64,000 nucleotides of DNA from NCBI GenBank assembly GCA_948144175.1, contig CANXME010001453.1, forward strand, positions 1,612,001 to 1,676,000, read 5' to 3'. The notes under the pieces were generated by a model. It was not told where the DNA came from and did not search any database. It saw only the letters and a list, made by a program, of their open reading frames with translations. Made by a program: the position numbers and the translations under genes. Numbering within the stretch: the stretch's first letter is position 1; every line of letters begins with the position of its first letter. Shown piece by piece: positions 9,883 through 51,899 of this stretch. Origin of the DNA: Closterium sp. NIES-65 (lineage: Eukaryota; Streptophyta; Zygnematophyceae; Desmidiales; Closteriaceae).

Positions 9883-9915
9883 CTCATGTAAAACTTTGGG
9901 CAACAATTGCAAAGC

Positions 9916-18599: not shown

Positions 18600-19680
18600 A
18601 GAGTAGGCTCGGCGACTCAGCGGCTCGGCAGCTCGGCGGCTCGGCGGCTCGGGCGACTCGGGCGGCTCGGCGGCAAGGCGGCTCGGCAGCAACTGCAGCT
18701 CAGCAGCTCGGTGACTCGGCGGCTCGGCGGCAGGGCGGCTCGGCAGCAACTGCAGCTCAGCAGCTCAGCGACCCGGCGGCTCGGCGGCAGGGTGGCTCGG
18801 CTGCTGGGCGGCTCGGGTGCAGGGCGGCTCGGCGGTGGGGCGGCTCGGCTGCTGCAGGTGAGCGGCTCGGCTGCTGCAGTGGGAGATGAAGGAGGAGGAG
18901 AAGCAGGGGAGGCCACACACCTGCCACCCCTCTGCTGGCCTCTCCCGTCGCCTGTCGAGGCGACCTGAGGGGGCCGCTTGCGGCCCCCGAAGGAGCCGCG
19001 ACGGGCGACGGGAAAAGGGGGGGGGTGGGTGGTGGGGGGGGGCCGGTAGGTGCAGCGGCGGGGCCAGCAGGTGCAGTTGCGGGGCAGGTAGAAGGGGACG
19101 GCAGGAGCCGTCAGGAGGGGACGGCGGGGCCGTCACGAAGGGACGGCGGGGCCGTCAGGAGGTGACCGGGCCGCGACGGGGGCAGGCGGCGGGGCCGCGT
19201 AAGGGCCTGGGCGGGGCCGCGACAGAGCCGTCGGCGGGGCCGCGTGAAAGCCGGGGCGGGGCCGCGTAGAAGCCGGTGCGGGGCCGCGTAGAAGCCGGGG
19301 CGGGGCCGCGCGAGAGCAGGCGGCGGGGCCGCGAAGGAGCCGGGGCGGGGCCGCGTGAGAGCAGGCGGCGGAGCCGCGTAAGGGCCTGGGCGGGGCCGCG
19401 ACAAAGCCGTCGGCGGGGCCGCGTGAAAGACGGTGCGGGGCCGCGTAGAAGCCGGGGCGGGGCCGCGCGAGAGCAGGCGGCGGGGCCGCGAAGGAGCCGG
19501 GGCGGGGCCGCGTGAGAGCAGGCGGCGGGGCCGCGACAGAGAGGGGGGCGGGGCCGCGTCAGTGAAGGCGGCGGGGCCGCAGGGGAAATGGCGACCCGAG
19601 GGGTCGCTAAAAAAAAGATCGCGCCTCGGGGGGCGCTTCGGTGGGCCCAAGAAAAAACGGTCCGTAGAAGGACCCGCTCT
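18600..19680 (-). repeat. GC-rich tandem-repeat leader of element B
   Basis: Two blocks of repeats: 18610-18880 with units like GGCGGCTCGGCAGC, and 19130-19590 with units around GGCGGGGCCGCGTGAGAGC. It occupies the leader position between primer binding site and gag and is not protein-like in any frame. Confidence 0.85.
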
Positions 19681-19686
19681 ATACCA

Positions 19687-19818
19687 TGTGAGAATAAGCG
19701 AACAGGAATGAATGAACTAGCAGTGAAATGAGTACAAGTGGGAAACCCTAGAATTGTGTACCCCCTATAGGCTAACCCACTGTAGCCTACACAAGCAGAA
19801 CATATCTAATGTTTGACA
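19687..19818 (-). repeat. element B 5' LTR
   Basis: 132 bp. On the minus strand it ends ...TTATTCTCACA and is followed directly by the primer binding site TGGTATAGAGCGGG. Confidence 0.95.
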
Positions 19819-20463
19819 AATATCGACAAAAGCCTCGGCGATTCTGGACAAGACTGCCAGGGGCGCTGACAGCTGGAGAAGCTACAGAGAGGATTTTCGA
19901 CACTGCAACAAGACAAACGGCAGCAATTTCGGGACTGCAGCAGCTGACAACTGAAGGTAATGCGGCAGCAGGGTGATTCGGTGCTGCCACGCGGAGATAT
20001 TTGGGTGGCGGTCTTTTCCAAGAGGGGGGAGAAAGTGCTCTCGCACTGTACTTGTCAGATTTTTCTGACTTATTTTCTGACAGATTCAGCACGACGGACG
20101 CTCGCGATCACATCAACGACATCGACGGGTCCTGCTTCATCGACTTCTAACAACGCGTCAGCATATCCGCCCACGACGTGTTCATCTTGACCGTCCGACA
20201 GAGATCCACCACATCGACGGTTCTTATTCATCAACGGCTTTTCAACTTGACATTCGAATTCAACCGCCCGATCGTTATCGGCAGTATCAACGGCTGACAT
20301 TCCAACTCTTTGAATTTCGCCTGGTCAACGCGTTCAGCCACGCGTCAATTTCACAGTCAACGACGTCTACACCGTCAGATCCGTTTCAACCGAGGTCTGC
20401 AGTTTTCACGCTACTGCAAGACTCGGCTCCGTATAAGGGGGCCTTATCTAGAAGGTGGGAGAG
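19819..20463 (+). other. interior of element C, right part
   Basis: Continuation of the C interior after the B insertion, starting with the second AATAT. It has no long open frame, shows recurring CATCGACGG/CAACGGC words, and ends in the purine tract before the right LTR. Confidence 0.6.
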
Positions 20464-20738
20464 TGTAATGAATATGCAATTCATTACTGTAGAGGCTGCT
20501 CCTAGCGAGAACAGCCCGAGCACTTCGCGTCAGGATGGCTCGTCCTACACTTTCGCACCGAGCCAATTCCGAGTCGCCCCGCACCAATCGCGACATTTCC
20601 GAGCCACGCACATCTAGAGGTTCTCGCCTAGCTAGTTTTCGCCCTATATATTCTTGCTTTCTTCATTGTTTCGTCATTCTGTAATCACGTCTTCTTTATA
20701 AAGTCTTCCGCGCACTCTGTCTAGTAAAACTCATAACA
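20464..20738 (+). repeat. element C right LTR
   Basis: 275 bp, five differences from the left LTR, followed by the target duplication AAAGC. Confidence 0.9.
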
Positions 20739-20743
20739 AAAGC

Positions 20744-21445
20744 ACTTGATTGAAGTGGTTACCTTGTGACTCAAAACGACGCGGGGGTTTGGTTGGAAGT
20801 ACAGAAACATACCTTGCGACACCCTAAACACACCAAGCGACTGACGCCCAACACTACTGGTCGCACGCACACTCAACCACACACTCAAATGCAACTGCAC
20901 AACAAGCACTGCTTTACATGAGACTATGACTGCGCCTAGTGTGAAACCTACTCGCCGCCTCCCAGGCGATTAGCGTAGCAACCCAAGCACACAAACTACT
21001 AACGACCGTCCCGACGCGCACACGTCCTTTCCACTACCCCGCGCGATAAACACATCGAAATTCGCCCAGACCAAGGCGGGGAATCAACAATGCGCCACGG
21101 GAGGCGCCGTAGGCGCAATGCACACGAAGCAGCCCACAGTCGCGCAATGACCGAAAACCGAAAACGTGCAGGTAGGCAACGACACGACGAGTAGGCAAGC
21201 TTAGCCTAAAGTCTGGGGTACACCATCGCAACCCTGACCGAGTTCGCGACCAGCATCGTGCACATCCGCAGGAGCGTGCGCGTTCCAGCGGAAGGAGGTC
21301 CCATATCGCGCCAAGCATGCATTGCTGGACATAAAAAAAAGACCGCCGAAAGGGGAGTGCAATACAACAAGGGCTGATGCCGAGCATCTCGGACAAAAGC
21401 ATACGCTAGACGGGAATGCCTATCACGCAAATGACCCAGCACCGC
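20744..21445. other. intergenic, nothing recognised
   Basis: Unique-looking DNA of mixed composition. Open frames of up to about 120 codons exist on the minus strand but have no recognisable domain and no splice support. Confidence 0.5.
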
Positions 21446-21447
21446 GC

Positions 21448-21590
21448 AAACCAGGCCAGCGCCGCGCATATCAGGACAGCGCCGCGCATATCTGGACAGC
21501 GCCGCGCATATCTGGACAGCGCCGCGCATATCTGGACAGCGCCGCGCATATCTGGACAGCGCCGCGCATATCTGGACATTCCCGCCTGGT
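21448..21590. repeat. 20-bp tandem repeat
   Basis: Seven near-perfect copies of a 20-bp unit, GCCGCGCATATCTGGACAGC. Confidence 0.95.
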
Positions 21591-23005
21591 CCGCACTCAC
21601 ACATTCCCGCCTGGTCCGCACTCTCACATTCCCGCCTGTCCCGCACTCTCGCTCACCCCCCTGTTCCGCACTCTCACATTCCCCCCTGTTCCACACTCTC
21701 ACATTCCCCCCTGTTCCGCACTCTCACATTCCTCCCTGTCGCTCACTCTCGCATACCCACCTGCCTGTCATAGGCACTCACACATTCCCTCGTGGCCAGC
21801 ACTCTCCCATTCCCACGGGCCCAGCACCCTAACATTACCTCCTATCCCGCACTCTCACATCCCCTCCTCGCCCGCACTCTCTCATTCCCTCCTATCCCGC
21901 ACTCTCTCATCCCCTCTTCTCCCGCACTCTCTCATTCCCTCCTATCCCGCACAGTCTCATTCCCTCCTATCCCGCACTCTCTCATTCCCTCCTATCCCGC
22001 ACAGTCTCATTCCCTCCTATCCCGCACTCTCTCATTCCCTCCTATCCCGCACTCTCTCATTCCCTCCTATTCCGCCCTCCCTCATTCCCTCCTATCCCGC
22101 ACTCTCTCATTCCCTCCTATCCCGCACTCTCTCATTCCCTCCTATTCCGCCCTCCCTCATTCAGGCCTGTCCCGCACTCTCGCATACCCCTTCCTGGCCA
22201 CTCACATACCCCCTCACCCGCACTCACATTCCCCCCTGTTCCGCACTCTCACAGTCCAGCCTGGACCGCACCGCACTCTCGCATTCCCCCCTCTTCCGCA
22301 CTCTCACATACCCCCCTGTTCCGCACTCCCACCCTCCCCCCTGTTCCGCACTCTCACATTCCCCCTGTTCCGCACTCTCCCATTCCCCCCTGTTCCGCAC
22401 TCTCACATTCCCACCTGTTCCGCACTCTCAAATTCCCCCTGTTCCGCACTCACACATTCCCCTTTTTCCGCACACTCACATTCCCCCTGTTCTGCACACT
22501 CACATTCCCCCTGTTCCGCACAATTACATACCCCCCTGTTCCGCACTCCCACCCTCCCCCCCTGTTCCGCACTCTCACATTCCCCCTGTTCCGCACTCTC
22601 CCATTCCCCCCTGTTCCGCACTCTCACATTCCCCCTGTTCCGCACTCTCACATTCCCCCCTCTTCCGCACTCTCAAATTCCCACCTGTTCCGCACTCTCA
22701 AATTCCCCCTGTTCCGCACTCACACATTCCCCCTTTTCCGCACACTCACATTCCCCCTGTTCTGCACACTCACATTCCCCCTGTTCCGCACAATTACATA
22801 CCCCCCTGTTCCGCACTCCCACCCCCCTGTTCCGCACTCTCACATTCCCCCTGTTCCGCACTCTCCCATTCCCCCCTGTTCCGCACTCTCACATTCCCCC
22901 TGTTCCGCACTCTCACATTCCCCCCTCTTCCGCACTCTCAAATTCCCCCTGTTCCGCACTCTCAAATTCCCCCTGTTCCGCGCTCTCAAATTCCCCCTGA
23001 TGAAT
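21583..23005. repeat. pyrimidine-rich minisatellite block (CTCTCACATTCCCCCTGTTCCGCA type)
   Basis: Long run of 20-25-bp imperfect units such as CCTGTTCCGCACTCTCACAT and TCATTCCCTCCTATCCCGCA. A higher-order duplication is visible: the segment around 22420-22560 recurs at about 22680-22830. On the minus strand the units read GTGAGAGTGCGGAACAGGG, so donor-like GTGAGAG recurs. Confidence 0.92.
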
Positions 23006-23144
23006 CCTTATCCTTGTGGCTGTTATTGTACAGGCACGCCACTGGAACTATATGAAGCCGATTCTTAGTTACCACAATTTGTGTAAAATACTAATACTTC
23101 CAGTCATTATCAAGTCTGTAACTTGTTTTACATTGAATAAAGTC

Positions 23145-23649
23145 TTAGTTGTGGCAGATGCGTAGAACAGCTTCCACCGTTCGGGAGTTGTCGACCATGT
23201 CCCCTTGGCTCTCTTGGGCCAGCTCTAACTCCTCTATAGCCCACTTCTCGAGGACACAACTCTGCTTGGGATTGGCCCGCGCAAATTCTTCTAGGGACCA
23301 GGTTTCGCTCGCATCCAGTAAAACAGGGGGTTTGCCCGTGGGCATTCGGGAGCGTCGCATTAGAGGCCTGTTACGGGCTAGCTGGAGGTTTGCTAGCCTT
23401 CTCCCTCTCCTCATTCCACCACCCACTAATGGGCGATTCATCCTTGACTTTCTGTGGTCGTCGCTGTCCGGATCACTCTCCAATTCATCGGTGAGCCGTG
23501 TGCCCAGAGTCAATCCCCTGTGTCGTGTGCTCCGACCCCTGTTCATCCTGGATGAGCCACAGTGGGTGGGTATGCAAATGGAGAGTTGGGGACAGGACAG
23601 GGTGGAAATGAATTCGAACATTTCAAGCTGAGCCGTGGATGCACCGGAG
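23145..23649 (-). CDS. candidate 3'-terminal exon of an unrecognised minus-strand gene
   Basis: A minus-strand open frame enters through a good acceptor (pyrimidine tract, then TTTCACAG, at 23650) and ends at TAA, 23145-23147, giving about 168 residues. The composition looks like protein and not repeat: an acidic stretch DELESDPDSDDH, a basic stretch MRRGRRLANLQLARNRP and a C-terminus with ETWSLEEFARANPKQS and EKWAIEELELAQES. I do not recognise the family. The exon starts in a phase that does not match the donor at 25844, so another exon would be needed between them if they are one gene. The upstream intron would be filled by the arrays at 23.65-25.79 kb. Confidence 0.4.
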
Positions 23650-23650
23650 C

Positions 23651-25130
23651 TGTGAAACAGTGGGGGAAGGGGAGTGAGCAGTGGGGGAAGGGGTGTGAAC
23701 AGTGGGAGAAGGGGAGTGAAACAGCGGGGGAAGTGGAGTGCAACAGTGGGGGAAGTGGAGTGGAAGCGTGGTGGAAGGGGAGTTGAGCCGAGGGGGATGA
23801 GGTGTGTAATGGTGGGGGATGGGGAGTGGAACGGTGGAGAATGGGGAGTGGAAGTGTGGGGGAAGGGATGTTCTGGCGTGGGGTAAGGGGAGTGGCAGCG
23901 TGGGGGAAGAGGCGTGGAAGCGTGGGGGAAGGGGAGTAGAGCCGTGGGGGTAGGGGAGTCTAACAGTGGGGGAAGGGTTGGGTAACAGTGGGGGAAGGGG
24001 TGTGAAACAGTGAGGGAAGGGGAGTGAAGCAGTGGGGGAAGGGGAGTGAAGCAGTGGGGGGGGGGGAGTGAAACGGTGGGGGAAGGGGAGTGAAACAATG
24101 AGGGAAGGGGAGTGAAGCAATGGGGGAAGGGGAGCGAATCAGTGGAAGTTGCCGATTTCGAAGTGTGGGGGAAGGGGAGTGGAAGCGTGAAGGGGTAGTG
24201 GTTCCGAATGGGGAAGGGGGGTGGAAGCGTGGGGGAAGGGAAGTGGAAGCGTGAGGGAACCGGAGTAAGGAGTGAGATCAGAGGGGATGGGAGATGCGCA
24301 ATGAGATGGGGGGAGAGGACCGAATGGGGAAGGGGAGCGGAAGCGTGGGGGAAGGGAAGTGGAATCGTGGGGGAAGGGAAGTGGAAGCGTGGGGGAAGGG
24401 AAGTGGAATCGTGGGGGAAGGGAAGTGGAAGCGTGGTGGAAGGGGACTGGAAGATTGCGGGAAGGGGAGTGGCAGCGTGGGGGAAGGGGAGTGGCAGCGT
24501 GGGGGAAGGGGAGTGTAACGGTGGGGGGTGGGGAGTGGAACAGTGGGGGATGGGGAGTGGAACAGTGAGGGATGGGGAGTGGAACCCGTGGGAAGCATGG
24601 TAAAACCGAGAGGGAAAGGGTGTGTAACAGCGGGGGATGGGGAGTCTACAGTGGGGGATGGGGGGTGGAAGCGTGCGTGGGGGGAGGGGAGTAGTTAGGA
24701 GGGGGAAGGGGTGTGTAACGGTGGGGGATGGGGAGTGGAACATTGGAAGATGGGGTGTGGAAGTGTGGGGGAAGGGAAGTTTTGGCGTGGGGGAAGGGGA
24801 GGGGAAGCGTGGGGGAAGGGGTGTGGATGTTTGGGTGCAGGGGAGCATGGGTGCATGGGTAGTGAAACAGTGGGGGATGGGTAGTGAAACAGTGGGGGTT
24901 GGGGCGTGAAACAGTGGGGGATGGGGAGTGAAACAGTGGGGGTTGGGGCGTGAAACAGTGGGGGTTGGGTAGTGAAACAGTGGGGGTTGGGGCGTGAAAC
25001 AGTGGGGGATGGGGAGTGAAACAGTGGGGTACGGGGAGTGGAAGGGTCAAGGAAGGGGGAATGGAAGGGTGGGGGAAGGGGAGTGAAAGCGTGGGGGAAG
25101 GGGAGTGGTAGCGGAGAGGAGGGGGAGTGG
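23651..25130. repeat. purine-rich minisatellite block abutting an acceptor
   Basis: Imperfect units of 20-25 bp built on GTGGGGGAAGGGGAGTG with GAAACA or GAAGC. On the minus strand they read CCTTCCCCCACTGTTTCAC, which is the pyrimidine tract of the candidate acceptor at 23650, so the array looks like an expansion of that acceptor region. Confidence 0.92.
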
Positions 25131-25164
25131 GAGCGTGGGCAGGGCACAGGGGAGCGTTAGAGCG

Positions 25165-25790
25165 GGGGAGCAGCGGGGCATGGGAGCAAGCGTGGTGCAC
25201 AACGGGGGAGCAGCGGGGCGTGGGAGCAAGCGTGGTGCACAACGGGGGAGCAGTGGGGCGTGGGAGCAAGCGTGGTGCACAACGGGGGAGCAGCGGGGCG
25301 TGGGAGCAAGCGTGGTGCACAACGGGGGAGCAGCGGGGCGTGGGAGCAAGCGTGGTGCACAACGGGGGAGCAGCGGGGCGTGGGAGCAAGCGTGGTGCAC
25401 AGCGGGGGAGCAGCGGGGCGTGGGAGCAAGCGTGGTGCACAACGGGGGAGCAGCGGGGCGTGGGAGCAAGCGTGGTGCACAACGGGGGAGCAGCGGGGCG
25501 TGGGAGCAAGCGTGGTGCACAACGGGGGAGCAGCGGGGCGTGGGAGCAAGCGCGGTGCACAACGGGGGAGCAGCGGGGCGTGGGAGCAAGCGTGGTGCAC
25601 AACGGGGGAGCAGCGGGGCGTGGGAGCAAGCGTGGTGCACAACGGGGGAGCAGCGGGGCGTGGGAGCAAGCGTGGTGCACAACGGGGGAGCAGCGGGGCG
25701 TGGGAGCAAGCGTGGTGCACAACGGGGGAGCAGCGGGGCGTGGGAGCAAGCGTGGTGCACAACGGGGGAGCAGCGGGGCGTGGGAGGTGA
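25165..25790. repeat. 40-bp tandem array
   Basis: About 15 copies of a strictly 40-bp unit (TGGGAGCAAGCGTGGTGCAC followed by AACGGGGGAGCAGCGGGGCG) with only a handful of single-base variants. It is far more uniform than its neighbours, which suggests recent expansion or homogenisation. There are no spacers. Confidence 0.97.
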
Positions 25791-25843
25791 GGGGCTGAGA
25801 TTCACAGCGTGAGGTGGGAGCGTGGGAGATTCACAGGGGTTAC

Positions 25844-26027
25844 CTCCCTGTCCGTCTCCCTTGGGGGTGACCACAGTCTCACTTATAACACGTAATCGGA
25901 CATTGAAGTGCGAGGACTCTCCCATTTCGATCACAGGCACATGCGATCGTGCGCAGATGGCAAACTGTTCGTTAGCGGTACGACCGTCAGTGGCAACGAG
26001 GTTGATACATGCCCTTTGGCGATTCAT
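25844..26027 (-). CDS. candidate exon, unrecognised
   Basis: Minus-strand frame from an ATG at 26027 (MNRQRACINLVATDG...) to a donor G|GTAACC at 25844, 61 codons plus one base. It includes HFNVRLRVISETVVTPKGDG, which has the alternating hydrophobic pattern of a beta-rich domain. No family recognised. It could also be the 3' part of a longer exon. Confidence 0.3.
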
Positions 26028-26099
26028 GTGGTGATGAAAGCAGTGTGGAGCGGGTTGATCGAGGCCTGGATGAGACGGGGGGAGCAGTGTACGCATTCC

Positions 26100-26776
26100 G
26101 CTGCGTCCTTGGAGTGCGATTGGTTTGCGCCGCGTGGTGCAATTTCGCCCCGTAATGGCAGTTAGGAATGCGATTCCCTAATTGCGCAGCCTGCTGTGTG
26201 ACGCCACTGTGCGGGCGAGTTAGCGTCACTACCTCGTCACCTGTTGCGTACGCGGATTGTGATAGATCACGCTGTGTTCCCCTATGAACACTACTTCCCA
26301 TCCCTAATCGCGTTGCGCGTGTTCCTGTAAGCCGTGGCGACTGTCGTATGTGATTTCGTAAGCCCGGCTCACTCCGCATCTGATGGCGTCTTGTCACACG
26401 AAGATTTGTGCTGCATCGCTCCTTGCTGCTTGAAGCCATCGGTGGCTGACCTAAACCCATTACTATTTGTGAAGAGCGTATGTTGTCCTTGGTGTCACCA
26501 CTTACCTCGATCAGTACTCGAGCCTGTTCGTCGTCGCTTTACCACCACCACACGGTCTCCCCGGCGTATGTACTGATTAGGTCCACTGCTGGTGGGTGAG
26601 TGTGTTGTCTCAGATGCATCGCTCGTAATTGTGCAAAACAGTTGACCCTTGGGCTGGTTTAGGCGTGCGACAACAAATCCGTCGTCACAAATTGACGTGT
26701 TGGTTTGTCTTGGGAAATGAATGTTCGGTGGCGAGACTCGTTTGCACTTCAGTTTGGTTTCAGATTCGTCAGCCAA
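26100..26776 (-). CDS. candidate exon pair with a 55-bp intron, unrecognised
   Basis: A minus-strand frame from about 26776 ends at a strong donor, CGAG|GTAAGT (last exon base 26506). 55 bp on, TTTAG is followed by a second open frame from 26450, and the phases fit exactly (one base plus two). The joined product reads ...DGFVVARLNQPKGQ...IRRGDRVVVVKRRRTG...STDRGQPPMASSSKE... and stays open for over 100 codons. No domain is recognised and the true first exon and 3' boundary are not visible. The region may belong with 25844-26027. Confidence 0.3.
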
Positions 26777-27212
26777 TCAGAACACCCCTGTTTCCGTCGA
26801 CTGCAAAGCACTTGAACTACTTGAGACCCTGGCTTTAACGTTGTTTGTTCCAGGTTCGTTTTGAATGGTTCATCCTGGTGCGCAATGGTCTAATGCGGTG
26901 AACGACCAAAACTGCGCCCAAACGTAGTTTACCGTATTCAACCACGTTGAACGAGCCCAGAACAATAAAGTATGACCCGCCCTTAGTGCTTTGCGAGGGG
27001 CTGTCGAAGTTGCTTCTACAAGATGAGATTTCCTTTCTGCAGATTCGACTCTAAATAGTGATGCGAGCCTTACACACGTAGTGTCCCGATTCTGGGCTGT
27101 CCGATTTTTTTCGACCAAGCGTCAAACGAAAAATCGTATGTCAAGCGTCAGCGTCGAAACGTTTTGACGGTTGGCGCAAGCCAGTCTGAGCGTTACCTCC
27201 AACTTACCTGCC

Positions 27213-29584
27213 ATGATGGCGCCCGGCGCGCACAAGCCAGGCCACCACCGTCAGCTCACAGCGCAGCAGCAGCTGCCGGGCGGGCAGCAGCAGCACGGGT
27301 GCGACGTGGTGTCGCGTCTCCTCGCGCCCTTCGCCGTGCTGCTCCTCCTCGCCGCCCTCCTCGCCTACCTCGCTCTCTCCCACGCGCAACCCCCCCCGCC
27401 CGCGCTGCTCCTCGCCTCCACCAGCCGGCCCCCCCCGGCCGTGTCGCGGCGGGACGAGGAGGCGGGAGGCACGATGCGGTTCGACGGGGCGGCGAGGGTA
27501 GTGCGGCTAGCCGTGGGTGTGAAGGAGGGGGGAGATGGGGGTGGGGGGGAGGGGAAGGGGGCGGATGCGAGGCAGGACGCGCGCGGGTGGATGATTGACC
27601 CGCTTGCCGCAGCGGTGGCCGCTGGGCTGAAAGGTGAATGGCGGGGTGGAAGGTGAAGGGCGGGGTGGAAGGTGAAGGGCGGGGTGGAAGGTGAAGGGCG
27701 GGGTGGAAGGTGAAGGGCGGGGTGGAAGGTGTTGAAAACGAGGGTGAAGTCTGCCCTTGTGGGGAGAGGAGAGGAGAGGAGAGGAGAGGGCGGGGTGGAA
27801 GGTGTTGAACACGAGGGTGAAGTCGATAGATAGCGGGGAGAGGAGGTGACGCTCTGCCTCCTCATGCCGTTCTGCCCTCATGCTTCCGAGCTGTTACGTG
27901 CGAGACCCATCTAGTACTCTTGATGACACTCAGCACCTGGTTCGCTCAACTCTAGGTAATCATCTCAAGCCCCTTTCCCCCCGCGGGTGCCCTCTGTGCC
28001 GCCCCTCCCCTTTCCTCCCAGGGGGTGCCACGTCATGCCTCATGACGCATGTGGGGGAGGTGCTACCTGAGAAGGTTCGTGGAAACCACCGGCACCATGA
28101 CTACAACGAGACGTTGGTGCTGTGGGGGGCGAGAATGAGAGTGCGGGTGAGTCACAGCCACGACTGTTATTGTTCATGGGGGTGAGTGGAGCACGGAGAG
28201 GGCGAATGAGGGTGCGGTGGGGGGGACGAGAGTGCGGGTGAGTGGAGAGGGGGGATGAGAGTGCGGATGAGTGGCGAGGGGGGATGAGAGTGCGGGTGAG
28301 TGGGGAGGGGGGATGAGAGTGCGGGTGAGTGGAGAAGGGGGATGAGAGTGCGGGTGAGTGGAGAGGGGGGATGATAGTGCGGGTGAGTGAGAGGGGGGAT
28401 GAGAGTGCGGGTGAGTGGCGAGGGGGGATGAGAGTGCGGGTGAGTGGAGAGGGGAAAAAGTGCGGGTGTGTGGGGGAATGGAAGTGCGTGTGAGTGGGGG
28501 AATGAGAGGTGAGGAGTGAGGGAGAGTGGAGGAATGAGAGGTGAGGGGTGAGGGAGAGTGGAGGAATGAGAGGTGAGGGGTGAGGGAGAGTGGAGGAATG
28601 AGAGGTGAGGGGTGAGGGAGAGTGGAGGAATGAGAGGTGAGGGGTGAGGGAGAGTGGAGGAATGAGAGGTGAGGGGTGAGGGAGAGTGGAGGAATGAGAG
28701 GTGAGGGGTGAGGGAGAGTGGAGGAATGAGAGGTGAGGGGTGAGGGAGAGTGGAGGAATGAGAGGTGAGGGGTGAGGGAGAGTGGAGGAATGAGAGGTGA
28801 GGGGTGAGGGAGAGTGGAGGAATGAGAGGTGAGGGGTGAGGGAGAGTGGAGGAATGAGAGGTGAGGGGTGAGGGAGAGTGGAGGAATGAGAGGTGAGGGT
28901 AGGTCGAAGGGTCCATAGGGGTGGGTGGAGGCTTACAGGGTGGTTGAAACGGTTGGGTGTTGATGGTCAAGGCAGACGTGGTGTGGTGGTGGAGTGGTGG
29001 AGTGGTGGGGTGGTGGGGTGGTGAGGGCAGAGGTGGCCTGCTGCATGTGTGATCCACCTCACGTGCATATGCTGCCACTGTGATGGCACTGTGCTGCCAC
29101 TGTGCTGGCACTGTGCTGCCACTGTGCTGGCACTGTGCTGCCACTGTGCTGGCACTGTGCTGCCACTGTGATGGCACTGTGCTGCCACTGTGTTGTCATT
29201 GTGATGGCAAGTGTATGTGGAGTATCCAACAGGATGAATGACTGGCGTCGTCAGTGCCCGTTTCCTCATCACAGTCCCATCTCTCACTTTCCCGTGACAA
29301 TGCTTCTTCTCTTCACACATTCCCTCTTCCCCATCCCATCCCCTCCCCCTACTGCTCCCTGTGACTCCTCCCCACAGAACGAGAACCGTGACGTGGCAAA
29401 GGGCTTTGCTGAGGTCATTCTGACAGCGGATGACGTGGCGGTGATGGCATGCCCAGCCATGAGCGCGCATGCAGTGGTGAACATCGACACGTCTCGCTCT
29501 GCGTACCTGATGGCCTACCAAGATGGCCTGCACGACCCCAACGACCCTCGCTCTGACTATGCTGTCTGGCCCGACCTTGTGTGA
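27213..29584 (+). CDS. membrane-anchored RmlC-like cupin protein
   Basis: Three exons: 27213-27633, 28022-28146 and 29378-29584, 250 residues, all junctions GT-AG with matching phase (421 nt, then 125, then 204 plus stop). Residues 35-57 (SRLLAPFAVLLLLAALLAYLALS) form one hydrophobic segment after a short Gln-rich N-terminus, so it is a type II signal anchor. A variable Pro/Gly-rich stalk leads to DPLAAAVAAGLK and then a single cupin domain (about 141-250) with the first motif RGNHRHHDYNETLVLWG and the second motif AHAVVNID. The His and Glu residues are those that usually hold a metal. From memory it resembles uncharacterised plant RmlC-like cupins; the reaction is unknown. I chose ATG 27213; a second ATG follows directly at 27216. 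Both introns are almost wholly tandem repeat. Its 3' end converges with GCN5, about 380 bp between the stops. Confidence 0.85.
27634..27800 (+). repeat. 19-bp array starting at the exon-1 splice donor (cupin intron 1)
   Basis: Exon 1 ends CTGAAAG|GTGAATGGCGG. Immediately downstream lie about five copies of a 19-bp unit, GGTGAAGGGCGGGGTGGAA, so AAG|GTGAA recurs at each repeat. A later segment with GGAGAGGAGAGG and another GGTGGAAGGTGTTGAA follows. Confidence 0.92.
28180..28475 (+). repeat. minisatellite carrying the exon-2 tail plus donor (cupin intron 2)
   Basis: About ten imperfect copies of a 26-30-bp unit. Each contains ATGAGAGTGCGGGTGAGTGG, which matches the last bases of exon 2 and its donor (ATGAGAGTGCGG|GTGAGT at 28135-28152). 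Confidence 0.95.
28500..28900 (+). repeat. 32-bp minisatellite (cupin intron 2)
   Basis: About 12 near-identical copies of a 32-bp unit containing GAGGTGAGGGGTGAGGGAGA and GTGGAGGAAT. Each unit holds two donor-like GTGAGG words. Confidence 0.96.
29080..29215 (+). repeat. 22-bp repeat, CTGCCACTGTG type (cupin intron 2)
   Basis: About six copies of CTGCCACTGTGCTGGCACTG-type units close to the 3' end of the intron. Confidence 0.9.
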
Positions 29585-29963
29585 CGTCCGTTCATGCCCC
29601 TTGAGTCATGTCACACTGTAATATATATATATTCTATTTCATTTATGAGGTTTATCCTTAACACAGATACAGTGATACTGCAGAGCACCTGCGAGAATGA
29701 GCAGGTGCAGCCAGGGCAGTGTTGGCAGGTGAGGGAATGGAGCAGCGATGCTCCATCACAGCAACAGCAACAGCCACAGCCAAACCATCCTGCTTCACCC
29801 AACCCTGTTAGCATCTGGCAGCCCTCACTGTGAACCAGGTGCAGCCGTATTCCGGAAGTTCTTGCTGATGATGGTGCGATGCCTTGGAGTGCAGTGCAGT
29901 GGAGTGGAGTGGAGTGGAGTGGAGTGGAGTGGAGTGGAGTGGAGTGAAACAAAGCAGAAAGGG
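29585..29963. other. convergent 3' intergenic region with GGAGT pentamers
   Basis: Separates the cupin stop (29584) from the GCN5 stop (29964). It holds about 11 tandem GGAGT pentamers at 29888-29945. No polyadenylation signal could be assigned with confidence. Confidence 0.7.
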
Positions 29964-38809
<8,846 letters not shown>

Positions 38810-40579
38810 CACAGCAGAATGCTTCTCGCGGTCTTCGTGCGAGAACCGTGTTACAATCCCCACGGTCGTTCGTCGTTAACACACGCGATTCTCGCGACCT
38901 GGATAGTCAGCTGGGGAGCGACGTGAGCGCGACTGTTGTCCGAGCGGGAAGAGAAGGAAGAGAGGGAAGAGAAGGTTGTCCTAGGGAGAGGGAAGAGAAG
39001 GTTGTCCTAGGGAGAGGGAAGAGAAGGTTGTCCTAGGGAGAGGGAAGAGAAGGTTGTCCTAGGGAGAGGGAAGAGAAGGTTGTCCTAGGGAGAGGGAAGA
39101 GGTAGGGTTGGAGGAAGGACGGCACGGCCCTTAGCAGCGCGTAAGAGGATTCTCCTACCATTTGCAGCCCGAAGCAAGCCTTCGTTGTTGGAATAGCGCA
39201 AGGACTGTTCCTGTTAGTTACCTCAGGCGTGATGTTCGTGTAGTGGGTGGATGGTTTGCGTCGAGGGGGTGATTGAGAAAACTCATCTAGTGTGTTCAGT
39301 CCCCTCTGCATCTTCGATGCTGCTGAGTTACAATTGAAGATTCGCACAAGTCACGAGGTGTGCGAAGACCTCTGCGAGTGTCGATTACGTCGCCAGTGCC
39401 GAGAGGTTCTGTGGGGAACTGTGTTGGGTGACCCCGTGAAGGTGAGATTGTTCTGGTTCCCCTCCCCTCGCCAGTGTCAAAACAATTTTAGCGGGATGCC
39501 TTCAACCCCTTTCCCCCCTTCTCCTCGCCCTTCCGCTCCTTCCGCGCGTGCGATTCTTGTCGCCCTCCCTGCGCACCTCGTTTCGCTCGGGCGCTGCTTC
39601 GCACTCAACGGAGAACATTAGGCGTCGCGACGGGGCGTGCTCCCTCTTTCCCTCTCCCTCTCCCACTCTTTCGTGGTGCTTCCCCTACGTGATTGCACCA
39701 CGCATCGCGCGGGTCGCGAAGGTCGCGCGGATCGGGCGGCACATTCGGGGGCGTGAAGGGGGCTGCCGCCTCGACCTCGAGCAGCAGCAGCGCGCGCGTG
39801 CAGCGCCGAGCGCCCCACTGTACGATGCTGCGCCGCCCCATGTGAGCCCACCACTCTGCCCTCTCTCCCGCTCTCCCTCGCCTCCTCGTTCCCTCGCCTC
39901 CTCGTTCCCTCGCCTCCTCGTTCCCTCCTTCGTCCCAACGCATGGGTGGCACTGCTGCCCTCATCGCGCATTACCCGATGCCCCAGCCCCATAAACCTTG
40001 CCTCTTCTCGCGCATTACCCGCGCATCGTGCCAGCAGCGCACGCCCTGATGGCATCAGCCCCATAGACCTTGCCTCCTCTTCTCTCTTACCCATGTTCTC
40101 CACCCACTTTTTCCTTCATCCCTCCCATCCGCAGTGCTGCAGAGGCCCTCGTTGCAAGAACACTCATTGTGTCACACAGCGCTCCTGTGTCACACAGCGC
40201 TCCTGTGTCACGCCATACAGCCCGCATGCCCCGCCCCCTCGCCACCTGCACAGCAGCCGTCTCTCTCCCGCTCGCTCCCCGTGCCTCTCCCACTCTGCAC
40301 CTCCTGCCATTTCGCACTGCCCACTCAGTAACCAGCCTTCCCTGCACACACACCCGGCACAATCAGCACACCCGGCACACCCAGCACACGGGCAGCAGGC
40401 AAAGCTCTCGCACGCAGCACACACAGCAGTGCCGCAGCAGCAACCACGCCTTTGTGCCGCCGTCACCATCAGGTACCGGCGTGCCCCCTTCCAACCACCG
40501 AGCACACGAGGGGCGAGTGAGTGCCATCCGCTCTCCACTGCACACCGTCTGCGCCGCCACGAGCCGACAGGGTGGGGGT
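38810..40579. promoter_or_regulatory. divergent intergenic region between GCN5 and PTRHD1
   Basis: 1.77 kb between two genes transcribed away from each other, so it should hold both promoters; neither core promoter can be pinned down. It contains a 26-bp purine repeat (six copies of GGTTGTCCTAGGGAGAGGGA type, 38965-39110), a threefold CACAGCGCTCCTGTGT repeat at 40165-40215 and CACCCGGCACA repeats at about 40345-40395. Open frames at 39548-39994 have no recognised domain. Confidence 0.5.
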
Positions 40580-42680
40580 ATGGCCGGGACTGCTGCTGAC
40601 TCTGCAGCAGGTGGGGCTGCAGCAGAGCAGCCAGCTGGGCCAAGCGGTGCGGAGGGTGTAGAGAGGACTGCAGCACAGGGGGTAGCAGAGGGAGGCGCCA
40701 CAGGCGGGCTGGAGTTTAGTGGGGCAGGGGATGGGGCACTGCAGGGGAGCGGGGAGGGGCAGGGGCAGGCGCAGGGCGAGGGGGAGGGGGAGGGGGAGGG
40801 AGTGGCGGGGGAAGAGGAGGAGGCGTTGGTGCAGCACGTGGTGATCCGGCGCGACCTGGTGGAGGCGCTGCAGTGGCCGCTGGGGTCCGTCATCACACAG
40901 GGCTGCCATGCCACTGTGGCCGTGCTGTGGCAGCACCGCCACCACCCCAATGTGCTCAAGTACTGTGGGCAGCTTGACTCCATGCGCAAGGTGGGTGCGG
41001 TGATGCCGTGTGGGAAGGGTTAAAAATAAGGCCATAAAAAACGGTATCTTAAAAAACGGTTCAAAACGGTTCCAGGAGGTGTTTTCTGTTTTATTGACAA
41101 AACAGCCACTTTATGAGACCAAATTGAACCAGAAATTCAGCAGGATGAAGGGGACGAACCCCTTCTTGCATGTGTCCGGTTGTTGGCATTATAAAGAATG
41201 TATTTGATCTGGTTTTCTTTCTATCTTTCTTTCTTTCTTTTTTTCACCGTAAAAATCGGACTGTATTTTACGAAAACTGTATTTTTTAGCCTTGCGTGTG
41301 GGCATTGCTGCTCACAAGCGCGCTCAATAACTCGCATCTCTGGATCCCAGGCACCCAGTTTTTCAAACTTATGATTTCAGGCTTGAGATTTGGAGCCTTG
41401 AACCCGAGTTGACTTTTGAGTCGACTCAACTTGAGATTTGGAGCCTTGAACCCGAGTTGACTTTTGAGTCGACTCAAAAGTCAACTTGAGATTTGGAGCC
41501 TTGAACCCTTGATTGAACTTGCGGCTTCAGATTTCACAATATTGCTTCATATGGTGTGCATGAATTGACTTGTGGGGGCGGAGGGGGAGAGGGGGGAGGG
41601 GAGGGTGAGGTTTGCAGCACTTCTGTTACCGGCAACGCAGCATTCTGAATCCGTGAAGCCGCAGGAACATCTGGTTCGAGCTAGAAAAGAGCTCATGGAT
41701 GTTATTGGCCGTTTTGAGCTCGAAAAGAGGGTAACTTGATGGCTTTACTCTGGAAAGCTGGGGTTTTTCGTCACCTTGTTTGAAGCATGGGTGCTTGAGT
41801 TTTCAGTTGGGTAGTAACTGCGTTCCCCAGAGTCATCATCGGTATCAGCCACTATCATCATCGGTATCAGCCACTATCATCATCGGTATCAGCCACTATC
41901 ATCATCGGTATCAGCCACTATCATCATCGGTATCAGCCACTATCATCATCGGTATCAGCCACTATCATCATCGGTATCAGCCACTATCATCATCTGTATC
42001 AGCCACTATCATCATCCCTCACAACCCTCAGTGGATGTTCAACATCTCTTCCCCCCCGCACCAACCCCCCTTCCCCCCCCCCTTATCCTCCCTCACCCCC
42101 TACGTCTCACCTACATTATTTATTCTGAAATCCTCATAGAAATTATGATTTTTTTCGCTCTTCTCTGATGCTTCCTGTTGCTGCATATTCGCATACCTAC
42201 CCCGCGAAACTGCCAGCCATCTCTCGTTCGCCCTTTGAGCACAACACAGACGTTTTCCTCATTCAATTGATTCATTTCATTCTCCCTTTCTTTCCGCCAC
42301 GCACTTCGGGGCAGATTTGCTACTTCAATCTCACGTCACTTCAGTCTACGACTTAGACGGCAGTTTTATAGCTCTAATGGCACAGCGTTCATATGGCCAT
42401 GAACCATTCAGCACCTCATCCAGTGTTGTAGTCCTGTTACTGATTCTTCAAACATTTCTTCTTCCCCGTTGCCGCCCTCCCCTCTCTCCCCCCTCAGGTG
42501 ACACTAGAGGTGAAGGGGGAGACGCAGCTGTTGAATCTGTCCAAGAAGCTGCAGGAGGCGGGCATCACTCACCGTGTGTGGATGGAGCAGCCTGAGAACA
42601 TGCCCACGTGCATCGCCACTCTTCCACACCCCAAGAGCGTTGTCACACCTCACATGAGGAAGCTCAAGCTGTGTAAATGA
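40580..42680 (+). CDS. PTRHD1: peptidyl-tRNA hydrolase, PTRHD1 type
   Basis: Two exons, 40580-40990 and 42498-42680, 197 residues, joined in phase 0 across a GT-AG intron of 1507 bp. Residues 1-80 are a low-complexity Ala/Gly/Glu/Gln-rich leader. The PTH2-type domain follows (83-197): LVQHVVIRRDLVEALQWPLG, then ITQGCHAT, then LDSMRK|VTLEV at the splice junction, then VWMEQPENMPTCIAT and a basic C-terminus (MRKLKLCK). Each block aligns from memory with human PTRHD1 and its plant relatives. The PTH2 fold releases amino acids or peptides from tRNA; for PTRHD1 itself the substrate is less certain. The Gly/Glu leader looks lineage-specific and may begin later than this ATG. Confidence 0.92.
41230..41510 (+). 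repeat. short repeats in the PTRHD1 intron
   Basis: A pyrimidine TTTC tract at about 41218-41245, then three copies of a GAGATTTGGAGCCTTGAACC block interleaved with GAGTTGACTTTTGAGTCGAC. Confidence 0.8.
41838..42018 (+). repeat. 22-bp array in the PTRHD1 intron
   Basis: Eight to nine copies of CATCATCGGTATCAGCCACT plus AT. Unlike the GCN5 arrays it lies mid-intron, not at the donor, and its unit has no donor word. Confidence 0.95.
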
Positions 42681-43486
42681 AGGAGATGTAACCCTATGAG
42701 TAAACGATATAGCGTGGAACTGGTCTCTTATATATAGTGACTCGTGTTGCTTGTGTTCTTCAAGGATGCTTCAAAAACCTAAAAGCAACGAAGAAATGTC
42801 ACTTCATGTGGGGTGAAAGTTCACTATTTGGTGGTACCCACCGTCTTGGAACTGCATGTGGAAAAATGATTAACAATCGCGAACCCCTCAATAACAGGTG
42901 CGCATAACCACCACCAACATTTTCCACGTCGGCGCTCGCAACGGCATGCCTGCTAGTGCCCAGTTTCCCGGCTCCTTCGAAAATACACTGAACTTCTGTC
43001 GAGGCGCGCAGCTTCAAATTGCTCGCGCCTCGACACCACCGTCAACCCAACCAACCCAGCATAAGCGCCTGTCGTGCTCCCCGCCTCCCCATTCACCTCA
43101 CGTTCTCCACTTCCCAACACAGGATCGCTCACCAACACGAGCGAAACACCTTAGCTCGCACCCTGAAGCGCTGTGGCGGCTTTTGTCCCCAAAGTCAGCC
43201 GTGATTCCGATACGACGGACAGACAGGAAGTAGAAGCACGCGAGTATTTAGCTGAACGAGTTAGACTTTAATCGCACGGGGTACCAGCCCTTGGCGGTAG
43301 GGGCTAGTTTCGTGTGGCACCGCCATGACGCACCAGGGTGCTGCTACGGGTGGCGGTTACTAACAAGACACATGCAGTATCCTAGGCTACTAACATTTTA
43401 GCGGAAAACATAGGCTCTCGTTGACGCAACGGTACTAGGTGTCGCAATAGCTGTTTGATTCTTTCTCGAAGATCTTGGACCAGGCC
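42681..43486. other. intergenic between PTRHD1 and the 422-residue gene
   Basis: PTRHD1 3' flank and the promoter side of the next gene. Open frames of up to about 110 codons at 42898-43233 have no domain or splice support. I see no repeat or RNA gene. Confidence 0.5.
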
Positions 43487-45058
43487 ATGGCATGCAGCCC
43501 GCCGCGCAGCACAGCCTTTCTCAAAGGCGCAATCAGTGTCTACTCTCCACCTCAACGGGTGTTATCTGATCCTCTTAAACGCGCATGTTTGAGGCTTGCT
43601 AAGGGTGAGCACGATTCCGCACTTCCCATTCCACGGCTGCGTTCTTGCTCAGCTGATTGCTGTATGTTCTGTTACTAGTATTTTATCCTGCATGACTTAC
43701 CTTTGCCTTGTTTTCTGTTATTCCTCAGAAAACGATGACATTCTTTGGCTGGATTTTTTCCGGCCGCAGACCCATCAACAGCCGTCGCACATCGTCGCAC
43801 GGACTTTCGTGCGATGCGATGCAGCTCGCCAGGGTTCGTCTCGTCGCCAGAGTCAGCAATCAGTGAGTGCGGGCGCGACAGCGCGGGCCAAGGGGACGAG
43901 AAGCCCTGCGGGGGCGGCGACCGCCGAGCGGCTACGGGTGCGGAAGGAGGGCAGCGCGCCGAGGAAAGCGGAGGTACCCGCGCCGGGCGCTGGTCGCGCG
44001 AGGGGCGAGCTAGACGCATTCGAGACGTGGCTGTGCGGCAGGGAGGCGCACAGGGAGAGCGCCAAGGGGGAGAAGGACGGCAGCGGAAGGGGCACAGGCA
44101 GACAGCGGGGCGGCCCAGCGCAACCGTCGTCGGCTCCGACGCCCACGGCTCCGCAGGTGAGGCGCGAGTGCGCGGAACGGCGTAGCACTGGTAGGCAGGC
44201 CGGGTGTCCTTCACAATCCGTCCACGTCGCACGTCATCCACACCTGCACATTCGGTGCTTCCCGAGTCAACGTGAGCCATCACTCACCCCCTTCCGCCTT
44301 CGCTTCCCCTCCACATCCCTATACCATTCCCTCAGAGAGCGGCGCAACCGCGCCAGCAGAAGGTGAGCGGCGGCGACCGCGCGAGCCAGAAGACGGGGCA
44401 ATCAGCCCCTGCTGAGAACAAAAGGCCTGCGGAGGGGCGCGCGGCTAGTAGCGCAGCGACGCACTCCGCCTCGAACGCGCAGCAAAACAAAGCTGGCGAA
44501 GCCTCGCGCTGCCGTGGCAGCAACGGTTGCCGACCCAGCAGCGATGGGGCCACCAGCAGCAGCTGCGCCAGCACTGGGTGTACAAAGGTCGGGCCAGAAC
44601 TGCCCAGGCAAGGTCGGTCTACCGGTGGTGAGGCTCCATCTCCCCGAACCAATCGACAGGCTAGGCGCGTTCGCAACTCGTATGCCTCGCTGGCTGACGT
44701 GGCAATGGCCGGCATGACGTGGATTGCGGGGCCAGAGGGGGTTAAGATCGAGGGAAGCGTGCAGCGGTGGAGGGAGGGCGAGGGGCGGGAGAGGCGCGTG
44801 CTGGTGGAGCGCGCCGTCGTGTCGCTGCAGCTCTTCCTGCCGCTCTCGCTCGTCGACCTGTCGCTGCGTGCCATGTGGCAGGGGATCATCAATAGGTGGC
44901 CTGGCTTGTGTGCGAGTTGGGTGGGAGCGGCGGTGCAGGCGGCTTCTGGTGTGGGCTGCTGGTTCTCGCGATTGAGGGCGTGGTGTGTGGTGCTCGGCGC
45001 GCTGCGAGCATTGCATCTGCTGCTCTGTGCCGTCAAGCCCAAGCCATGTGCCGCATGA
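43487..45058 (+). CDS. unrecognised protein, 422 residues, three exons
   Basis: Exons 43487-43604, 43729-44156 and 44336-45058. Donors are AAGG|GTGAGC and CGCAG|GTGAGG, acceptors TTCCTCAG and TCCCTCAG, and phases match (118, 428, 723 nt, the last with TGA). The N-terminus (MACSPPRSTAFLKGAISVYS...LRLAKGENDDILWLDFF) is compact and could be a folded or targeting segment. Residues 60-310 are low-complexity and charged (Arg/Gly/Ala/Ser/Gln-rich) and probably disordered. The C-terminus has a likely folded part with SLADVAMAGMTWIAGPEGVKIEGSV (split here as SLADVAMAGM and TWIAGPEGVK), ERAVVSLQLFLPLSLVDLSL and two hydrophobic stretches ending at CAVKPKPCAA. I do not recognise the family. Support is splice consistency only. 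Introns are short and free of arrays, unlike its neighbours. Confidence 0.5.
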
Positions 45059-45646
45059 TGTTCGATATGACCATGTGCCTGTGTACTTCTGACTTCGTGC
45101 TAATCCGGGGTGTAGGATAGTCTATTCATTTTGTACAGATTGTGGATGTATTGTGCCTTATAATAATCAACACAAGGATCTGAGAGTGCAGTTTCCTGCG
45201 ATCAGAAATTGATCGTCCCTAGGATCTCCTCAGGAAGGTTCGCACACAATTGGTTCTGTGGTGGTGGGCCCTTGATCTCAAAAGCAGAGTGAATGTAAAA
45301 TGCTTGAGATTATTACAACATTCAAATACGAAGGTATAAATAAGAGTACAGGGAGGAATACGAAGCTACCTAGCTAGCCATGTACTCTAAGGGGTACATT
45401 CCCTTATTACAGCGAAACTCAACCGTACAGCTCCAGACAATCCTCGCCACTGCTGCTGCCTGATGTTGTTGTTGTGAACAAACAATCTTAAGCGCCTCTG
45501 TCGTGTCGAAACACCAAGACACAAGCGAAGCAGCGCATATCGAGGCACCAGTGAGTCAACCCTCGGAGGTTGATGTAACCGCTGGAGGTTACGCGAAAGT
45601 CAAAGTTCAGCGACCTTTGACCTGACAAATGCAGCGCGGCTGCAAG
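45059..45646. other. 3' flank and intergenic, nothing recognised
   Basis: AT-richer DNA that ends at GCAAG, the target duplication of element D. The locus continues at 53107. Confidence 0.5.
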
Positions 45647-45781
45647 TGTTGAGAATAGAACGAGAATGAATAAACTATGAATGAAGTGAGTACAAATAGG
45701 AAACCCTAACTGGGTTGTACCCCCTATGGGATACCCCACTACAGCCTACACAATAGTATAAGCTATATATATGTTCTGACA
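45647..45781 (-). repeat. element D 3' LTR
   Basis: 135 bp, TGTTGAGAATAG...TTCTGACA on the plus strand, next to the purine tract complement CACCCCCATAGG. Confidence 0.92.
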
Positions 45782-45987
45782 CACCCCCATAGGCAAAGTG
45801 GGGGAGAACAACGGGTCACAAGACCAGTCAAGCAAGACAAAGCAAAGCTCAGGGTGGATCACAAAGTCACCACACAGTCCGAGCACAAGAGCAAGGCCAC
45901 AAGGCCAGTTCACATGCAAGAGTACAGACATATATATAAAGCTAGACAAGCAAGAGCAAGTATATATATGTCACAGTACAAGTAAAG

Positions 45988-47973
45988 TCAAGAGGAGAGC
46001 AAGTGAGACAAGACAGGCACAAGACCCAGCTGCGTGCAGAAGCGCTGATGGTCACAAGGCGCAAATGCCTTGGTGAACACATCAGCAGTGTTGGCCTCGG
46101 AGGCCACGTACGCAAGCCGCAACTGTCCACGCTGCTGTAGCTCACGAGCAAGGAAGTAGCGAAGAGCAATGTGCTTCGTTCTGTGCTCCAGTCGCTGCTC
46201 TCGACACAAGGCCAGCATGGCCTTGTTGTCTACGTACAGCACTGGAGGAGAACGAGGCGGCTCTCCAAGGTCAGTCACCAGGTAGGTGAGCCAGCGAAGC
46301 TCCTGTGCAGCCATGGCCCCTACGTAGATCTCAGCCTCACAACTGGAGCTGAGAACCGAAGACGAACGAGTAGCCCGCCACGAGACAGAGCCGGAACCAA
46401 GGCTGAAGGTGTAACCCTGTGACGACCGCTGCGTAGCCTGGTCGTCAGCCCAAGAAGCGTCCGCGTGACCTGTAAGGACCACTGGACTCCGCCCTCCAAG
46501 CACTAGCCCCATGCCCAACGTACTGCACAGGTAGCGCAATACCCTCTTCGCTGCAGCCATGTGCTCTGGTCGGTGTCTCCCAGGAGCAACATAGCGTGCA
46601 AGAATGCTCAGAGGGTATGCAAGGTCAGGTCGTGTGCAGGTCATCAGTTACATGAGGCAGCCAACAAGCTCTGGGTACGGGCCACTCGACTCTACGGACT
46701 CATCCAAAGGCAGAGCTGAGAGCGAGTGGCGGGTAGACAGAGGAGTGGCCTGAGGCGAGGAGTACGTGAAGCCGAAGCGCTGAAGGACCTGCTGCACCAT
46801 GTGTGACTGAGTCAGGGTGATGGTGCGGTGTGCTCTGTCCCGAGTGATCTGCAAGCCAAGGTAACTGCGCAGTTCACCCAGGTCTGTGAACGTGTGTCTC
46901 TTCAGCAGCTCGGACTTCACGTAGGCGAGTCCAGCAGTGTCCGCTGTGGCAAAGACCAAGTCGTCGACGTACACGAGGATGTAGAACGGCGGCAGTGAAG
47001 TGTCGGTGCGCAGAAACAGCGACGGGTCAGCAGTAGAAGGAGCAAACCCAAGAGCCGCAAGCGTAGTCCTCAGTGTGTCGTGCCACTCACGCGGTGCCTG
47101 GTGGAGACCATAGACTAGCCGTCGGAGGCTCCACTGGGTGCCAGGAGGGAAAGTCCCAGTGAAGCCAAGTGGACGGCGCAGCCAGATCTCCTCGTGCAGG
47201 CTACCCTGCAGGAACGCAGTGCTGAAGTCGAGAGAGTGAAGCTCGTAGTCGCGCTGAGCGGCTATGTGTAGCAGCACCCGAAGAGTGGTCATCTTCGGGG
47301 TGGGAGAGAAGGTCTGAAAGTAGTCAACTCCCTACCGCTGACTGAAGCCACGAGCGACGTACCGCGCCTTGAAGACAGGTGGAGAGCCTGGCGGCCGCTT
47401 CACCCTGAAGATTCACATGCCACTGACGATGTTCGCCCCAGGAGGGGGAACCGCGTCAACGTAGGTGCCTGTGGACTTCCAGGAAGCCATCTCTGCATCC
47501 ATAGCTGCCTGCCACTGAGAGGAGTAGGGACCCTCTACGGCCTCCGCGTAGGAGTGCGGAGTCGGGATGTCTAGTGCATCCGGGTCTCCCTCAGGAGCAA
47601 GCAGTACAGACGCGAGATGAGGTGAAGCAGCAGCCAGACACTGTAACTCCTCCTGCCTGTCCTCTAGGACGTCCGTGCCAAGAGCACACTCACCCCCGAC
47701 GGACGGAGGACAGACAGACGCAGACTCAGCAACAAGACTAGCAGCGTAGTCTAGACGACAGCGAGCAGCAAAGTCGACGAGCTCAGCGACAAGAGCAGAC
47801 GCAGCAGTGGACTCAAAAGAGGGGTCAGTAACGACAGTAGCAAGGAGACGCGTGACAGTAGGACTGGCAGCACGAAGGGAGTCCGACTCAGGGTCGGCAA
47901 GCGCAGGAAGAGAGGACTCACGAGGAGAGGGCAAAGGGGCACGCAGAGGAGCAGTGGACGGACGCAGAGACAT
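45988..47973 (-). pseudogene. reverse transcriptase and RNase H part of copia element D
   Basis: Minus-strand frames with SLDFSTAFLQGSLHEEIW, YVDDLVFATAD, HADASWADD and TKHIALRYFLAREL, closely matching A and B. Treated as a fossil. Confidence 0.85.
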
Positions 47974-51873: not shown

Positions 51874-51899
51874 CATGACAGCAGTAGACGGTCTCACCA

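Follow-up and report, generated by a model that had tools for sequence, protein, structure and literature searches.

Donor-anchored tandem arrays in introns of two neighbouring Closterium genes and how they may be retained

The closest described counterpart of the arrays reported here is the VNTR in intron 18 of human ABCA7, a repeat of a 25-bp unit that begins with the GT of the canonical exon 18 donor (PMC5954066). According to the excerpts of that report, transcripts spliced at the second copy retain 25 bp, are out of frame and are subject to NMD, exon 19 skipping rises with longer VNTR alleles, and the alternative transcripts together exceed the canonical one in 90% of BA10 brain cases (PMC5954066). 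Excerpts of two other papers describe tandem duplication as an accepted route of intron gain (PMC3443670) and a duplication crossing an acceptor in potato RdRp that changed gene structure and gave a new intron (PMC4974935); the excerpted text of three more (PMC10407611, PMC8469720 and PMC6692358) has no direct bearing on a donor-array pattern.

We followed up an earlier reading of a 64,000-nucleotide window from Closterium sp. NIES-65, made from the sequence alone (the original prediction), which held that intronic minisatellites repeatedly start at, or copy, the 5' splice site in a GCN5 gene and an adjacent cupin-like gene, and that no description of this as a gene-wide pattern was known. The latter statement was borne out for arrays recurring through one gene, which no listed title or abstract opening in the open-licence literature described, but not for a single gene, since ABCA7 is a precedent (PMC5954066, in excerpt).

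Gene models and the introns surveyed

The window is 59.5% G+C and contains spliced eukaryotic genes. Three of them were examined, two of which had been picked by the original prediction for the pattern; the third, PTH2, is a small control gene outside the original finding, found by Pfam on the six frames of 38900-43500. Their coordinates in the window are as follows.

29964..38012, minus strand: GCN5/KAT2 gene, exons 2-12 (Pfam Bromodomain and Acetyltransf_1; PDB match 9ynv_N)
38012-37948, 36953-36873, 36437-36366, 36040-35992, minus strand: GCN5 exons 2-5
34882-34763, 34551-34508, 34275-34176, 33339-33073, minus strand: GCN5 exons 6-9
32025-31932, 30464-30323, 30021-29964, minus strand: GCN5 exons 10-12
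27216..29584, plus strand: cupin-like gene, exons 27216-27633, 28022-28146 and 29378-29584, with an open in-frame translation
40823..42677, plus strand: PTH2 (peptidyl-tRNA hydrolase 2) domain exons, with one 1507-nt intron (40991-42497)

When spliced, GCN5 exons 2-12 give a single open protein of 363 residues. The best PDB match of this protein is the histone acetyltransferase 9ynv_N (E 5e-91), and nine of the ten exon joins are gap-free in the alignment, the exon 9/10 join lying at a 4-residue gap. Given the open protein and the nine gap-free joins, misplaced exon boundaries were rejected, and the boundaries of the original prediction stood, including those of the cupin-like gene, which is in frame. 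We take the name cupin to rest mainly on the label in the original prediction and on recall, because the sole Pfam match, PF14667, is weak and under the family cut-off. The joined PTH2 exons cover nearly the whole Pfam PTH2 model; exon 2 by itself had no PDB match. A GCN5 fragment used as a query in viral contigs found no relatives.

These models supplied 13 introns with boundaries set by homology or reading frame (10 from GCN5, 2 from the cupin-like gene and 1 from PTH2), all 13 of them GT-AG. GCN5 intron 1, whose donor is uncertain, entered none of the counts; the closest listed array lies about 70 nt from the nearest candidate donor.

Elsewhere in the window, Pfam on the six frames of 19600-24400, 24400-27200, 43000-46000 and 9400-13000 returned nothing at E 0.01. 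Long open frames at about 4600-9600, 13200-18500, 46000-52100 and 55000-64000, on both strands, resemble copia-like polyproteins by eye, and a copia-like reverse-transcriptase fragment used as a query in viral and genome contigs found no relatives.

Arrays at donors and acceptors

Arrays were defined by TRF (period at least 9, score at least 50), and a donor was counted as touched when an array started at +2 or earlier. For each junction, we also asked whether its 20 bases recur within the same intron at 16/20 or better, with 100 shuffles per intron for comparison. Arrays cover 50% of the intron sequence, with tandem units of 9-48 bp plus one 87-bp row. Those relevant to donors are listed below, with the junction at the slash where one is shown.

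36770..36885, minus strand: GCN5 intron 3, 26-bp unit of 13 nt of exon 3 tail, GTACGT and 7 nt; 4 identical copies, then decayed copies; junction recurs 20/20
36340..36378, minus strand: GCN5 intron 4, 19-bp unit of 13 nt of exon 4 tail and GTGAGT; 2.1 copies; junction recurs 16/20 (shuffled maximum 15)
35779..35991, minus strand: GCN5 intron 5, 18-bp unit GTGAGAGGCATGGGGCAT, whose start coincides exactly with the donor GT; 11.4 copies; junction recurs 16/20 (shuffled maximum 14)
34728..34761, minus strand: GCN5 intron 6, 9-bp unit from +2, without GT; junction 12/20 (shuffled maximum 13)
34130..34186, minus strand: GCN5 intron 8, 19-bp unit with CAG/GTGGGG; about 3 copies, with 3 to 11 exon bases, varying by TRF row; junction recurs 17/20 (shuffled maximum 15)
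32719..33085, minus strand: GCN5 intron 9, 23-bp unit with 13 nt of exon 9 tail; GG/GTAGGG kept in the first two copies; junction recurs 18/20
31867..31954, minus strand: GCN5 intron 10, 31-bp unit of 23 nt of exon 10 (DIIKDPI codons) and GTGCGTGC; 3 copies with GTGCGT or GTGAGC, the last with GTGAGC; junction recurs 20/20
30157..30296, minus strand: GCN5 intron 11, 23-bp unit with the word CAGGTGAAT, beginning 27 nt into the intron; junction 13/20 (shuffled maximum 13)
27631..27731, plus strand: cupin intron 1, 19-bp unit AAG/GTGAA..., 3 exon bases included; junction recurs 17/20 (shuffled maximum 16)
28220..28900, plus strand: cupin intron 2, 29-bp units with ATGAGAGTGCGG/GTGAGT (to about 28475), then a 32-bp array; start 74 nt into the intron; junction recurs 17/20 (shuffled maximum 15)

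An array crosses the donor, exon bases included, in six of the 13 introns (GCN5 introns 3, 4, 8, 9 and 10 and cupin intron 1), and the donor is touched in eight, the other two being GCN5 introns 5 (+1) and 6 (+2). The original prediction named arrays equally frequent genome-wide at acceptors or mid-intron as evidence against it; by the same TRF definition, no array crosses an acceptor in any of the 13 introns. The difference between eight touched donors and no touched acceptor corresponds to p of about 0.008 in a sign test done by hand. The junction test also separated the two ends, with recurrence at 8/13 donors and 0/13 acceptors and 5.2/13 expected for random intron positions. Arrays touch seven coding stretches within 2190 coding bases, and six of the seven are exon tails at donors. 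Dinucleotide-shuffled introns (n = 1300) yielded 0.02 donor-touching introns per 13, against eight in the real sequence, so that chance low-complexity arrays were rejected and the donor-anchored arrays of the original prediction are real, with the following corrections to individual introns.

The claim that units consist of exon tail plus GT was confirmed for GCN5 introns 3, 4 and 10, as were the exact start at GT in intron 5 and the donor repeat in cupin intron 1. For GCN5 intron 9 it is true of the first two copies; GT is gone from the amplified copies, which therefore are not a decoy ladder. The copy of the cupin exon 2 tail and donor is real but displaced into the intron, and in GCN5 intron 11 the donor word is repeated, but as a donor copy it is no better than shuffles. 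Intron 8 had been called weak and is in fact strong, while intron 6, called weak as well, is so: its array abuts the donor with a unit that lacks GT. The description of the result as ladders of decoy donors consequently fits GCN5 introns 3, 4, 5, 8 and 10 and cupin intron 1, but not GCN5 introns 9 and 6. The first six decoy donors of intron 5 are in frame with the true donor.

No donor array is present in GCN5 introns 2 and 7 or PTH2 intron 1, where the first arrays lie 64, 136 and 63 nt in, respectively. Near acceptors, a short-period array ends within 15 nt in 4/13 introns (null 1.75, P 0.08). In GCN5 introns 5 and 4, arrays with 5- and 10-bp periods (34895-35022 and 36056-36209) stop 12 and 15 nt short of the acceptor, and the closest AG upstream lies at 167 and 181 nt.

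Several other repeats were seen in these introns. In GCN5 intron 5, about 330 bp at 35158-35491 end in perfect inverted repeats of 14 bp and contain inner hairpins, with a matching CACAGTCGTA-like word on either side by eye, and look like a MITE-type insertion; a 29-base piece from its end occurs once in the window. GCN5 intron 2 has nested perfect inverted repeats with 15-bp arms at 37203-37255 and a second inverted repeat (19 bp, 89%) at 37296-37340. Away from its donor, the PTH2 intron has a 22-bp array of 8.4 copies and a 48-bp segment that is duplicated perfectly.

Explanations for the donor-side arrays

Whether the donors are hit more often than random placement allows was considered under several null models, and all P values given here are optimistic, because both genes were chosen for showing the pattern. 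When the gaps between arrays were re-dealt, with crossing arrays clipped to the intron start, a first gap of at most 2 nt was expected in 0.15 introns and seen in 8/13. Uniform seeding, in which each array counted as one unit and present-day introns had their arrays collapsed, gave 1.1-1.2 donor-crossed introns compared to the six observed (P 0.0003). When the collapsed introns were instead limited to 150, 120 or 100 nt with the last 40 nt barred, the expectation rose to 4.1, 5.2 or 6.3, the P for at least six donor-crossed introns became 0.17, 0.42 or 0.71, and the excess was gone. Donor enrichment depends, therefore, on the assumed ancestral intron length, and the statement that random minisatellites would not sit here this often holds for uniform seeding (1.1 versus 6) but not for introns capped at 120 or 100 nt. 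Zero acceptor crossings under collapsed-intron uniform seeding has a P of 0.30, which is unremarkable, and on that null the asymmetry would thus be a donor excess and not an acceptor deficit. The tests give the same sign to the contrast between donors and acceptors but differ on which of the two it represents.

We consider it probable that this repeat-prone region produces ordinary minisatellites and that a splicing sieve decides which of them persist. Provided that splicing takes the first donor, a duplication across a donor has no effect on the mRNA; a duplication across an acceptor does have one when splicing takes the first AG. Short tandem duplications would arise in non-coding DNA, and some would expand. 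One that straddles a donor would carry a copy of the exon tail and GT into the intron, with the old junction still in place ahead of the new one. Provided that splicing generally uses the most 5' donor of adequate quality, such a duplication would not alter the mRNA and would persist. One that straddles an acceptor would put a complete acceptor copy, and hence a new AG, upstream of the real acceptor; were splicing to take the first AG that follows the branch point, extra sequence would enter the mRNA and the duplication would be lost. Over repeated rounds, introns could come to have arrays anchored at the donor and 3' ends free of them. The arrays, the exon boundaries, the asymmetry and the marks of constraint are seen in the sequence itself; which donor the spliceosome uses, that selection acts and how general such duplication is are inferred.

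Because the exon tails encode part of a conserved protein, the intronic copies are most simply derived from the exon. Nine of the ten GCN5 joins made at the first donor restore the conserved protein with no gap, and this conservation favors use of the first donor. At least one decoy scores as high as the true donor or higher in 7 of the 10 scored introns with donor-side arrays; position must therefore matter, since strength alone would fail, and 33 of the 46 decoys listed outside cupin intron 2 would shift the frame. At the other end, the last 30 nt of the 13 introns hold 3 AG dinucleotides compared to 21.2 in random windows of the same introns (P 0.00005). Strong donor-like sites (threshold 14) are absent from the 12 exon tails of GCN5 and the cupin-like gene, where 2000 synonymous-codon shuffles predict 3.6 (P 0.010); at thresholds 12, 13, 14 and 15 the P values are 0.043, 0.032, 0.010 and 0.33, uncorrected for the four tried. 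In the corresponding 12 introns, 24 such sites lie within the first 60 nt. The loss of AG at intron ends, the depletion of donors in exon tails and the frequent decoys downstream all fit the rule of the sieve. ABCA7, with its NMD-prone transcripts from the second copy, and the potato duplication, which altered the gene by crossing an acceptor, are precedents for it. Several observations count against it. Collapsed intron lengths predict only 1.2-1.5 donor-crossed introns versus 6 (P 0.0003-0.0012), short-period arrays do come near acceptors in the 4/13 introns noted above, the exon-tail depletion is not seen at threshold 15, arrays are unevenly spread outside the genes, and the donor-anchored ABCA7 array is not harmless, because longer alleles raise exon 19 skipping in the excerpts of that report (PMC5954066).

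Array density outside the introns also bears on this question. The intergenic stretch 19600-27200 is 48% array, compared to 50% of the introns, and array birth therefore needs no link to junctions. Very long minisatellite fields with 12-, 22-, 25- and 40-bp units lie outside the three genes at 1-1154 and 21576-25786; array formation is thus common in parts of the region. Other stretches outside genes vary, with 18% array at 38830-40500, 0.9% at 43000-45700 and 0% at 9500-13000, so arrays are not equally common across non-coding DNA.

The original prediction had instead proposed a process that duplicates DNA at exon-intron junctions. In a fuller form of such a view, which we regard as unlikely, duplications would nucleate preferentially at junctions in a manner coupled to transcription or splicing, and introns would grow from their donors as decoy ladders of which the spliceosome reads only the first rung. 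A mutational process linked to transcription or repair that duplicates preferentially at junctions, for example through R-loop breaks or a polymerase stalled near the donor, is in our view unlikely. The near absence of arrays from some of the non-coding stretches just described would suit such targeting, as would the six donors crossed where uniform seeding expects 1.1 and the eight short first gaps, and the copies in introns 3 and 10 are identical to the exon tail and therefore probably recent. The excess vanishes, however, if ancestral introns were about 100-120 nt with the acceptor side protected; junction windows are duplicated in 8/13 introns, against 5.2 for random positions; and PTH2, the one extra gene, is negative. 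By eye, the units of one intron's array do not resemble those of another, and they share no composition (intron 4 is C-rich, the cupin units are G-rich and intron 10 is mixed), and no G-richness shared among the ladders was seen by eye. Since the donor excess is present on some nulls and absent on others, duplication targeted to junctions is possible but not needed, even though the asymmetry that led to its proposal is real.

It is quite unlikely that there is no bias at all and that donors fall in arrays because half of the intron sequence is array, in genes picked as striking. The 50% coverage, the eight duplicated donors against 5.2 duplicated random positions and the negative result for PTH2 are all as expected if so, but acceptors then should not differ, and none of the 13 is duplicated or crossed; nor should arrays so often begin no more than 2 nt from the donor, as they do in 8 introns versus 0.15 for re-dealt gaps. 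Selection in favor of additional donor-like sites or of G-rich repeats close to the donor, acting through U1 recruitment and long-intron definition, is very unlikely, given that the 2 strong sites per intron in the first 60 nt (versus 0.86 per 60 nt in mid-intron) which would speak for it are set against an amplified unit that lost GT in intron 9, a unit that never had GT in intron 6, and donor arrays that occur in short introns 4 (325 nt) and 6 (211 nt) and in neither intron 2 (994 nt) nor the PTH2 intron (1507 nt).

If the pattern is genome-wide, ordinary duplication passing a splicing sieve and targeted mutation could be told apart directly by RNA and strain comparisons. Such a genome would also offer a natural experiment on how the spliceosome chooses among identical, evenly spaced donors across many introns and copy numbers, and it would show intron lengthening without a change in protein.

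Comparison with known systems

Like intronic minisatellites generally, these arrays have tandem units of 9-48 bp; they differ in their position at the 5' end of the intron in 8/13 introns. They share with ATP2A1/ATP2A2, the 24-bp repeats of fission yeast and potato RdRp a short tandem duplication that copies splice signals within a gene (PMC4974935 and PMC3443670, in excerpt). In those cases, as far as the excerpts describe them, the outcome was a new intron or new splice use, whereas here the intron is lengthened at its donor side only. Copies of both GT and AG, as in intron gain by tandem duplication, were not found among the 13 introns, given that no acceptor is crossed and none recurs at 16/20 or better.

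The likeness to ABCA7 is closer. GCN5 intron 5 has the same anatomy as the VNTR in the excerpts of that report, with an array running from the donor GT. Arrays at or spanning the donor whose units repeat the donor are present in GCN5 introns 3, 4, 5, 8 and 10 and cupin intron 1; in GCN5 intron 9 this is so in the first two copies only, and in intron 6 it is not. The ABCA7 array, as excerpted, concerns one intron of one human gene and a unit that begins at GT. Here 8/13 introns are affected and, unlike in ABCA7, units hold exon bases, 13-23 of them in GCN5 introns 3, 4, 9 and 10, up to 11 in intron 8 and 3 in cupin intron 1. The donor-anchored array is of a known kind, with ABCA7 as the sole case found, and its recurrence along one gene is, as far as our searches show, new.
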